IMG/VR virus record: IMGVR_UViG_3300048930_000192
Location: 1-64,000 of that record
DNA from: a virus
DNA: 64,000 bases
Direction: 5' to 3' (one strand)
Position 1 is the stretch's first letter; every line of letters starts with the position of its first letter. The notes below the pieces were generated by a model, which did no database searches, was not told where the DNA came from, and saw only the letters and a list, made by a program, of their open reading frames with translations. Position numbers and translations under genes: made by a program. Below are positions 50,410-53,512 of this stretch, in pieces.

Positions 50410-51111
50410 ATGTCGTTACCAAAGATCGCAGTTCCAACTTACACACTAACTCTACCTTCTAGTGGAAAAAAGATAAACTATAGGCCATATCTAGTCAAAG
50501 AACAGAAGATTCTATTAATGGCTTCTATACCCGGCGCCACATTTGAAGATGTTTATAATGCTATTAAACAGATAGCAGTAAATTGTACTTTTGGTGAGAT
50601 AGATATCGAAAGTATACCGTTGTTCGACTTCGAGTATATTTTCTTGAATATCAGAGCAAAGAGTGTCGGTGAAATAATCACACCTTCTATCAAGTGCGAC
50701 AAGTGCGACAAAGACGTGCAGGTAACTATTAACTTGGGTGATATTAAAGTTACCAAACTAACAGATAGAACTATTAAATTATCTGAAAATATTGGTATAG
50801 TATTAAATTATCCGTCATTTAGTATATCTAAGATAGAAGCAAAGCCAGACGGTAGCCCAGATGACGACTATCGAGCAATATATAATTGCGTAGATTACGT
50901 CTACGAGGGTAGTCAGGTATTTACTAAGAAGGACTTCACATACGAAGAATTTGTTTCATCTTTTATAGAATTGCTAAGTGATACCGATTATCAGAAGATA
51001 TCAGATTTCTTTATTAACATGCCAAGAATATATCTAGAAACCGAAATGAAATGTAAGTGTGGGCAAACAAAGAAGATAGAAATATCGGGGATACAAGATT
51101 TTTTATACTAA
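50410..51111 (+). CDS. 26: gp26, baseplate hub or tail assembly protein
   Basis: 233 residues (T4: 208), family 'T4 baseplate protein'. It begins LPKIAVPTYTLTLPSSGKKI with the conserved YRPYLVKEQKILLMA block. Two Cys pairs (C96/C99 in KCDKCDK and about C216/C218 in KCKCGQ) could form a zinc site. It has a strong AGGAG 8 nt before the ATG. The last codons are GAT TTT TTA TAC and then the stop. The T TTT TTA is a perfect -1 slippery heptamer that would fuse this protein to the next reading frame, giving about 294 residues, in the manner of tail assembly chaperones upstream of tape measures. Confidence 0.9.
   Translation: MSLPKIAVPTYTLTLPSSGKKINYRPYLVKEQKILLMASIPGATFEDVYNAIKQIAVNCTFGEIDIESIPLFDFEYIFLNIRAKSVGEIITPSIKCDKCDKDVQVTINLGDIKVTKLTDRTIKLSENIGIVLNYPSFSISKIEAKPDGSPDDDYRAIYNCVDYVYEGSQVFTKKDFTYEEFVSSFIELLSDTDYQKISDFFINMPRIYLETEMKCKCGQTKKIEISGIQDFLY
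51099..51105 (+). promoter_or_regulatory. Candidate -1 ribosomal frameshift site T TTT TTA
   Basis: Heptamer in the correct phase of gp26 (GAT TTT TTA), the same as the HIV-1 gag-pol slip sequence. Slipping back one base leads, without a stop, into the frame that encodes the gp51-like protein. Confidence 0.65.
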
Positions 51112-51121
51112 GCTGCATACA

Positions 51122-51157
51122 TGAAAGTTTGATGATTTATTATAAGTTAAACTTTCA
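51122..51157 (+). promoter_or_regulatory. Stem-loop downstream of the slip site, covering the gp51 start
   Basis: Perfect 9-bp inverted repeat (TGAAAGTTT and AAACTTTCA) with an 18-nt loop, 16 nt after the heptamer. The loop holds the ATG at 51132. It could stimulate frameshifting or mask the internal start, although the spacer is longer than the usual 5-9 nt and the stem is AT-rich. Confidence 0.45.
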
Positions 51158-51293
51158 ATTATCGCAGCATCATAAATTTAGCTTAGAAGAACTTGAAAAT
51201 ATGATACCATGGGAACGCGAAGTATACGTTACATTATTGAATCAGCATCTGGAAGAATTAGCAGAAAAACGTAGACAAAGAGAAGCCACATGA
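51132..51293 (+). CDS. gp51-like baseplate hub assembly chaperone, or frameshift tail of gp26
   Basis: 53 residues if translated from the ATG at 51132. The core FSLEELENMIPWEREVYVTL resembles the short conserved protein found between gp26 and the tape measure in many myophages, where T4 has gp51. The internal ATG has only a weak ribosome site and lies in a hairpin loop. The frame is open upstream through the gp26 3' end, and the -1 heptamer at 51099 would join it to gp26. The stop overlaps the next ATG (ATGA), which suggests coupled translation of the tape-measure candidate. A charged helical tail ends the protein. Confidence 0.7.
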   Translation: MIYYKLNFQLSQHHKFSLEELENMIPWEREVYVTLLNQHLEELAEKRRQREAT

Positions 51294-53512
51294 CACCAGA
51301 GGACGAATCACGCAATCCTAAACCAGAACGTCGCCATTACGATGATGACCAATCATTTGAAATGGCGATGTGGGTGTGGAAACAGGAAGTTAAAAATGCT
51401 CGCGCATATGCTAGGTTCAATAAGAAGGTAGACGAGAAGTTTAATACAAAACCCGCATCTGATGGCGAATCTGATATTAATCCATCGGACTCATCACCCA
51501 CCCCAACAAAACAAGAACGTGTAAAAGCAAGAGCAGAAATAAAGAATGATGCGCAGCCTTCTGCTACACCAGATCCGGTTAGTCCAGCACCGACTAAAAC
51601 TACTAATAATGCCAAGATAGAAGATATAGAGCCGCAGTCTAAAAGAACAAGATCTAAAAAAAGAAGCCCTCTTGGTCCAATAAAGAGGGAACTTGCCAAT
51701 ATTTCTAAAAATGCATCTACAAGTGCAAGAAATAGTGGTGTAATACGCACACAAATATTGGGGCCAATAAACGAACGATTAGCTAATTTAGGTTCTTCTG
51801 TTCGCCATGCAACTACAAGAATAAACCAGTCAGAAAGAAACCTAGAAGAAAAAATAGGCAAGGTATCTGGTATTGTAAAAGATGTTAGATCTGAAAACGG
51901 AAAACTATTTGATCGACTAAAGAGTTTGCGCAATATTGGTAATATCTCTAGGGGTGTTGCCAAAGCCCGCAAACGAATAGAAGGTATAAATGAGCGCACA
52001 AAGAGTTTGCGCAATATTGGTAATATCTCTAGGGGTGTTGCCAAAGCCCGCAAACGAATAGAAGGTATAAATGAGCGCACAAAGATCATTAACAAGAATG
52101 TAAAGATACTTACCACTCAGCCAACTGACGTAGAACCACAACATCAGCCGGGTATAATGGAAAGGGCATGGACCGGATTAGGTACTAGACTTGGATTAGT
52201 TAAACGCGACGGCAATGCTGCACTAAAGAATGTTAGAGGTACCGGCAATAAAGCTAAGATAAAATCTCTAAATCCAAGAATGTCTAAAATTCCAGATCCA
52301 GGCGAATTGCCTAGTCAGTTGGGCATAGAAGCTAAGAATATCTATGACAGATATACTAGCCCGTGGTCTACTGGTACGAAATCCAGAATATTGGCAAATA
52401 TGGTTATGCCAGGTGTAACTGCTTTACCTGCATTGGCTAGATCTATAACCGGTACTTCTAAAGGTAGAGGCATATTTAAGAAGCGCAATAAAGGTAAACA
52501 AGATGTTTCAAATGCCGAAAAGGTAGAAATAAAACAAGACAAATCAGAGCAAACAGAAGATTTGTTAGAAAAGTTGAAGAATACTGTATTTAAGGTCAGA
52601 ATCGTAGAAGGCGACGACTCGCTTTTGCTAACTGGTAAAAAAGATAAAAAAGACGAAAATGGAGAAGATGGGTTATTAAAAACTCTTGCTAATGGGCTAT
52701 TATCTGGTAAAATGATGTCTACAATAATGAGCTATATTACAGGTCCGGCTTTGGGTGCAATTGGAACAGCTGCTCTTGCTATTGTATCATCTCCGGTTTT
52801 CTTGGCTGGTGCAGCAGTTGCAGTTGGGTACATATTGGGAAAAGTGATGGAAGATTTGGGTCTTTTGGATGCACTTTTAGATAAATTCCCCGATGCTAAG
52901 AAATTCTTAGACGACGCCGGGGCGGGATTTGAGCAAAGAGGCACATTAATAGATTATAGACACGAATCTAGAAAGGCGTTTGAAGCCGCTGCAAAAGGTG
53001 AAGATAATAACTTCAGCAAGACTAATCCTTTGGCTCAAAAAGCATTTGAAGAAGGAGAAAAATTAAAATTTAAGTATGATAAAATGCGCGAGGACGGTGT
53101 TTCCGAAAGAGAAATAAAGAAACAAATTCAATTGGATTATTATGGGTTAACCAAGAAATTAGAAGAAACTTCACCAAACTTACTTTCTCCCGAATATCCA
53201 TTAATTCAAAACAAGCCGGTTGATGTTAGTGGTCTTGGTATGTATGATAAATCTGGCATATTAAAAAATAATAATATATCGCCATCTGACGATAATAGAA
53301 TGTTCAACCCATTCTTTGGCCTGTTTAATGAAACTTCCAAGAAAATTGAGCAGGAAGAAAATACTAAACAAGAACAACCGGCAGCACCAATAAATGTCAA
53401 TAGTATAAGTAATAATGTTAGTACAAACAATTCTTCACCCACACTATTGGCGCCACAATCGATGTTCGATGCAAAACAATCTTATAGTAGATTTGGCTGG
53501 CTATACGCCTAA
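51290..53512 (+). CDS. Tape measure candidate (gp29 position)
   Basis: 740 residues (T4 gp29: 590). The N-terminal 130 residues are charged and Pro-rich. Residues about 130-285 are basic and helical, with a 27-residue unit (SLRNIGNISRGVAKARKR start) present in two perfect tandem copies (residues 212-265) and a degenerate third copy just before them. Residues about 470-525 form a hydrophobic, Gly/Ala-rich segment (GPALGAIGTAALAIVSSP and FLAGAAVAVGYILG) of the kind that can insert into the host membrane on ejection. The C-terminus is Asn/Ser-rich. Its place after gp26 and gp51 supports the tape measure role; direct similarity to gp29 is not evident. Confidence 0.72.
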   Translation: MTPEDESRNPKPERRHYDDDQSFEMAMWVWKQEVKNARAYARFNKKVDEKFNTKPASDGESDINPSDSSPTPTKQERVKARAEIKNDAQPSATPDPVSPAPTKTTNNAKIEDIEPQSKRTRSKKRSPLGPIKRELANISKNASTSARNSGVIRTQILGPINERLANLGSSVRHATTRINQSERNLEEKIGKVSGIVKDVRSENGKLFDRLKSLRNIGNISRGVAKARKRIEGINERTKSLRNIGNISRGVAKARKRIEGINERTKIINKNVKILTTQPTDVEPQHQPGIMERAWTGLGTRLGLVKRDGNAALKNVRGTGNKAKIKSLNPRMSKIPDPGELPSQLGIEAKNIYDRYTSPWSTGTKSRILANMVMPGVTALPALARSITGTSKGRGIFKKRNKGKQDVSNAEKVEIKQDKSEQTEDLLEKLKNTVFKVRIVEGDDSLLLTGKKDKKDENGEDGLLKTLANGLLSGKMMSTIMSYITGPALGAIGTAALAIVSSPVFLAGAAVAVGYILGKVMEDLGLLDALLDKFPDAKKFLDDAGAGFEQRGTLIDYRHESRKAFEAAAKGEDNNFSKTNPLAQKAFEEGEKLKFKYDKMREDGVSEREIKKQIQLDYYGLTKKLEETSPNLLSPEYPLIQNKPVDVSGLGMYDKSGILKNNNISPSDDNRMFNPFFGLFNETSKKIEQEENTKQEQPAAPINVNSISNNVSTNNSSPTLLAPQSMFDAKQSYSRFGWLYA
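51919..52085 (+). repeat. Perfect 81-bp tandem duplication in the tape measure candidate
   Basis: Two identical 81-bp copies (period 81), coding for 27 residues each (codons 51923-52003 and 52004-52084). The 27 codons before them (51842-51922) align in register at several positions (IG, S, V, R, R and K), suggesting an older third copy. Confidence 0.95.

Follow-up and report, generated by a model that had tools for sequence, protein, structure and literature searches.

Organisation of the gene 26 locus

The window, the whole stretch of DNA that was analysed, comprises positions 1-64,000 of the IMG/VR virus record IMGVR_UViG_3300048930_000192, which is 131,810 bases in length, and the features described here all lie on its plus strand. 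The gp26 ORF (50410..51111) encodes a protein of 233 aa with Zn-ribbon-like CxxC pairs that matches PF12322 (E 4.9e-57) and phrog_150 (E 3e-62) and is viewed as the short form, or TAC-N equivalent, of a tail assembly chaperone. The 3' end of the gene reads GAT TTT TTA TAC TAA and includes an in-phase slippery heptamer, T_TTT_TTA (51099..51105), with the frame-0 stop TAA (51109..51111) one codon past it. The -1 frame is free of stops from 52 nt upstream to 182 nt downstream of the gp26 stop and closes at a TGA (51291-51293). After a -1 slip the first new codon would be ATA at 51105, and the extension (51105..51293, 62 codons and a stop), which is the TAC-C equivalent and the 'gp51' of cyanophage annotations, would yield a fusion of 232 + 62 = 294 residues. 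A preliminary description, made from the letters of the window, had already noted the phased T TTT TTA near the end of gp26 and a -1 slip leading into a gp51-like frame with a product of about 294 residues, and on both points it was accurate. The junction that it gave, IQDFF-ILSC, stays as an alternative; the main reading is IQDFL-ILSC, because a TTA read in frame 0 gives Leu, and the expected junction peptide of the fusion is IEISGIQDF[L/F]ILSCIHESLMIYYK.

The tail encoded in the -1 frame has matches to phrog_634 ('baseplate hub assembly catalyst', E 2.3e-25) and to the final 55 positions of phrog_150. The fused protein aligns with phrog_150 over its full length (5-281 of its 282 positions) and scores 246 bits, versus 211.6 for gp26 alone (a gain of 34 bits). 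The record holds a single copy of gp26 and a single copy of the tail.

Directly downstream lies an ORF of 740 aa (51290..53512) which, on account of its position and size, is a candidate for the tape measure protein. The start codon of this ORF and the stop of the -1 frame share bases (ATGA), which makes translational coupling between the two probable. As to the order first proposed, fusion and then tape measure, the gene after the fusion is this candidate, but a search of the 740-aa protein against Pfam and PHROGs returned no family match; the protein at the equivalent position in P-TIM68 is a weak match to tape-measure PHROGs. The candidate gene also contains a perfect 81-bp tandem duplication (window 51919-52085, 2.1 copies, 100% match) that adds 27 residues, looks recent, and could be tail-lengthening. 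In some Pelagibacter, Methylophilales, and Rhizobium phages (L003, L004, L098, L110) a small extra ORF of roughly 270-380 nt separates the -1 tail from the tape measure gene.

Conservation of the slip site and of the -1 frame

For comparison, loci were drawn from IMG/VR and from annotated phages and thinned to less than 90% nucleotide identity, and the comparison set consists of the 98 non-redundant loci with a single gp26-family gene. Alignment of the gp26 ends of relatives had been put forward in the preliminary description as a check on T TTT TTA, and such a comparison reveals a slippery heptamer at the gp26 end in 94 of the 98 loci (64 T_TTT_TTC, 18 T_TTT_TTA, 11 T_TTT_TTT, and 1 T_TTA_AAC), positioned exactly one codon ahead of the gp26 stop in 85 of the 94. 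Within gp26 bodies the background per codon junction is 0.75% for any in-phase X_XXY_YYZ and 0.14% for T_TTT_TTH, and elsewhere in gp26 the pairs Phe-Phe and Phe-Leu are written T_TTT_TTN in just 23 of 200 cases. The occurrence of the heptamer is far beyond chance; the loci share ancestry and so are not independent trials, yet the nearest gp26 is just 43% identical to that of the window. The one T_TTA_AAC belongs to Rhizobium phage RHph_I1_18 (L098), where it replaces the T run and gp26 runs eight codons beyond the slip site.

The existence of long in-frame homologues such as T4 gp51 might suggest that a fused gene has here been split by a one-base indel, be it through decay of the locus or through sequencing error. 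This notion is refuted by conservation, as the same arrangement, phase, and slip site recur in 94 of 98 non-redundant loci, and we give it virtually no credence.

Beyond the gp26 stop the -1 frame remains open for 43-70 codons in all single-gene relatives, compared with a median of 4 codons for the +1 frame. Its residues are conserved from the slip site onward, with I/L/V at codon 3, L/F/M at codon 5, His at codon 7 (80%), L/V/I at codon 10 (94/94, 100%), and NF at codons 17-18 (93-95%). These data bear on the view, implied by cyanophage annotation and by a separate gp51 CDS in most of the public records examined, that the 62-codon frame is a small gene in its own right, translated without any frameshift, whether by initiation at a start codon of its own or by reinitiation once ribosomes have terminated at the gp26 stop. 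An ATG is indeed present at 51132..51134, and in some relatives (L097, L099, L102, L105) an ATG overlaps or closely follows the stop (TAATG or TGATG). However, the window's ATG is the only one in the frame and falls downstream of several conserved -1 residues, so that initiation there would remove the conserved I/L..H..L segment (IL..IHESL in the window); no Shine-Dalgarno (SD)-matched start codon was found for the downstream frame in the window, as had been surmised when the ORF was first described as being without a good ribosome site. Among the relatives, a start with an SD match precedes the -1 tail in only 7 of 94 loci (leaving 87 with none) versus 74 of 94 for gp26, and the annotated starts of gp51 vary between phages. 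A separate gene would, moreover, give no reason for conservation of the heptamer, and in T4 gp51 the tail is fused in frame to a gp26-like body. An own-start or reinitiation model was ruled out on the start and SD statistics together with the conservation ahead of the ATG, and we consider it very improbable. In public records the gp51 starts are inconsistent or the gene is missed in five loci (L001, L002, L004, L106, L109; it is absent in S-WAM1 and 93 nt long in P-HM2), as would be expected if the tail had no start of its own.

The -1 tail is also kept after gp26 in loci that have no perfect heptamer, namely those of Ackermannviridae (L101, L103, L108, L192, L193, L196) and of some Vibrio phages (L105, L194, L195), whose tails share a conserved motif, MPWHL (APWQV in L194). 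The junctions of these loci read ATT TTC, GTT TTC, GTT TTT, CTT TTC, or CTT TTT, which would imply either a lax slip site, with the A-site tRNA alone re-pairing, or another route, and the heptamer is therefore not the sole route to the tail.

RNA structure and upstream sequence around the heptamer

A two-part RNA stem of 20 bp (51112..51168) is predicted to begin 6 nt past the heptamer, with an MFE of -20.9 kcal/mol (z -5.5) that none of 200 shuffled sequences equalled; its inner arms were also detected as an inverted repeat. The preliminary description had placed the ATG of the downstream ORF in the loop of a hairpin at 51122-51157. That hairpin exists, but it forms the inner part of the larger structure, and the ATG is situated at the border of stem and loop rather than squarely in the loop. 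Its role as a device for hiding the ATG was dismissed, given that the full fold puts the stem 6 nt past the heptamer, and it is better read as a frameshift stimulator.

Across the 94 loci, the RNA downstream of the heptamer is more structured than in control windows (mean z -1.68 versus -0.54, p 8e-6), and the strongest structures are encountered in the T_TTT_TTA loci (mean z -3.5). A related T_TTT_TTA clade has an 8-bp hairpin 5 nt past the heptamer, in which 86.7% of cells are paired. Three of its pairs have changed on both sides, a number that does not exceed the shuffles (equalled or surpassed in 93 of 500), while its cell count and covariation score do exceed them (1 and 4 of 500 as high, respectively). 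Covariation thus lends modest to moderate support to such a stem, and does so from a T_TTT_TTA clade other than the window's own lineage. On the tree about six changes are needed for T_TTT_TTA, with the window alone on a long branch, and the stem of the window therefore probably arose separately from the hairpin of the related clade.

The downstream structure also bears on a transcriptional origin of the shift, whereby RNA polymerase would slip on the T run and generate mRNAs that have lost or gained a base. Most sites do have runs of at least 6 T, yet six T is short for transcriptional slippage. Furthermore, the phase of the T run relative to the codons is fixed, the Rhizobium phage has the non-homopolymer T_TTA_AAC at the equivalent site, and structured RNA is enriched downstream, all of which argue against slippage by the polymerase and leave it with only a marginal probability.

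Slippage by the ribosome may also be favoured from upstream, where an SD-like GGGG (51087..51090) lies 8 nt before the heptamer as a possible second stimulator. The predicted duplex with the anti-SD is stronger at this site than for synonymous recodings (-5.7 versus -3.3 kcal/mol, p 0.005), and an SD-like tract 8-9 nt upstream of the heptamer is found in 83 of 94 relatives, a count for which a conserved Gly codon accounts in part. A search of positions 50900-51400 against Rfam yielded no match. The predicted stem, at 6 nt, lies within the distance of about 5-9 nt expected of a downstream stimulator of programmed -1 frameshifting, and the SD-like tract is a putative stimulator on the upstream side.

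A more speculative scenario, which we put forward with little confidence, is that, in the chaperone genes of T4-type phages, the identity of the slip site and the type of stimulator have evolved together. Lineages that slip at U UUU UUA, of which the window's is an independent case, would have gained strong stem-loops about 5-6 nt downstream, those with U UUU UUC would use the sequence together with an upstream SD-like tract, and the ratio of short to long form would stay tuned throughout. If this were true, the T4 pair of gp26 and gp51 would represent the same control of the ratio shifted to two genes.

The T4 gene pair and other tail assembly chaperones

In T4, genes 26 and 51 are separate and divergently oriented, and therefore no frameshift could join them. 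Both T4 proteins match PF12322; T4 gp26 ends at position 235 of phrog_150, while T4 gp51 reaches position 280, and phrog_634 is matched by the C-terminus of T4 gp51. Judged from these matches the two T4 proteins are paralogues, with gp51 consisting of a gp26-like body followed by the same tail at its C-terminus as the -1 frame encodes in the window. Since it reaches position 280 and carries the phrog_634 tail, T4 gp51 is the long form encoded by a separate gene, and the gp51-like ORF of the window is therefore the tail of a long form. T4 gp26 is accordingly homologous to the window's short form and T4 gp51 to the full long form; the preliminary description had treated the downstream ORF as a separate gp51 chaperone, a reading that must be abandoned, as T4 gp51 corresponds to the whole fusion. 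T4 thus has two divergent genes and no frameshift, whereas in the window both forms would come from one gene, and T4 and its close two-gene relatives use the non-slippery codons TTC TTT for the same Phe-Phe. When viral contigs were queried with T4 gp51, Straboviridae-type two-gene loci only were retrieved. In RB43 (L104) two gp26-family genes are found in tandem on one strand, with the long form first, unlike the divergent pair of T4, and in one further locus (L095, 3001-3746) a T4-type gp51 frame is interrupted, its length not being a multiple of three, owing to a sequencing error or a real indel. It has been noted that cyanophage gp51 is without the first ~200 residues of T4 gp51 (Sullivan et al. 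2010, PMC3037559), and T4 gp26 and gp51 have been listed as hub assembly chaperones, gp51 being absent from the particle (PMC3004832).

Predicted structures are in keeping with this view. The AlphaFold2 model of gp26 (pLDDT 91.7) matches gp26-family models and some gp51-like models in BFVD, and in a T4-type gp51 model the structural elements follow one another largely as in gp26, with three extra C-terminal helices, which is consistent with a body-plus-tail reading. A fold search of the PDB with the gp26 model, tail chaperones included, found no match at E <= 0.001 (best E 0.83), and a search of the PDB by sequence gave no useful match.

Taken together, we regard a programmed -1 frameshift at the end of gp26 as very probable from the comparative sequence data, and a chaperone role for the gp26 products as likely. 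In this T4-type phage, gene 26 would encode a chaperone for tail/hub assembly that comes in a shorter and a longer version. The majority of ribosomes would terminate at the TAA at 51109, releasing the short form of 233 aa, and some of them, held up at the 51112-51168 stem and perhaps also by the SD-like GGGG, would slip by -1 at U UUU UUA and translate 62 further codons, giving a long form of 294 aa, the counterpart of full-length T4 gp51. Both forms might then aid hub assembly around the tape measure, whose candidate gene follows.

G/GT-type chaperones have a short and a long form that share an N-terminal body, as predicted here, and the idea that gp26 and gp51 are the T4-lineage counterpart of lambda G/GT is well supported by the comparative data. 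The lambda slip site is G_GGA_AAG, as opposed to T_TTT_TTA in the window. Frameshifting is reportedly conserved in several T4-like groups, with T4 using genes 26 and 51, according to the abstract of Vladimirov, Gautam and Davidson from 2022. In lambda gpG/gpGT and the other -1 frameshift chaperones of Xu, Hendrix and Duda (2004) there is likewise a short form and a rarer long form, with the slip near the end of the first ORF and upstream of the tape measure; no sequence relation to gpG/gpGT has been shown, and the window's fold has no significant match to solved structures. The tail chaperone of Vandenendeviridae/Andersonviridae is produced on the same principle, by a -1 slip where TAC-N ends, in another phage group and with a GTTTTT motif (PMC12846349).

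The preliminary description knew of no frameshift described at a T4-type hub locus, yet such frameshifting is not undescribed. Tail assembly chaperone genes of T4-like phages, in short and long forms, were identified by Vladimirov, Gautam and Davidson (Virology 2022, 566:9-15), a study to which later papers refer for poly-T slippery runs, as known -1 signals, in T4-like TAC-N genes (PMC12846349) and for some T4-like phages with separate short and long chaperone genes (PRFect, PMC10885494). As far as can be gathered from these citing papers, the genes are the same as those of the window (gp26/gp51), and the window differs in representing a divergent uncultured lineage, in which the slip site is T_TTT_TTA, one of the less common variants, and is followed by a strong stem. 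The window is therefore, as the 2022 work is represented there, a divergent addition to an already known frameshifting chaperone system, and as frameshifting had been proposed for T4-like phages in 2022, the gain here lies in its breadth (94 of 98 loci), in the natural control offered by the two-gene phages, and in the candidate stimulators.

In many genomes of T4-like phages, the small ORF listed as a separate 'gp51' is thus more aptly regarded as the C-terminal part of a chaperone produced by frameshifting, and its annotation should be corrected. What T4 encodes as two hub chaperone genes would correspond to a single frameshifting gene elsewhere, and the long-standing question of the roles of T4 gp26 and gp51 becomes testable as a matter of the ratio of short to long chaperone.
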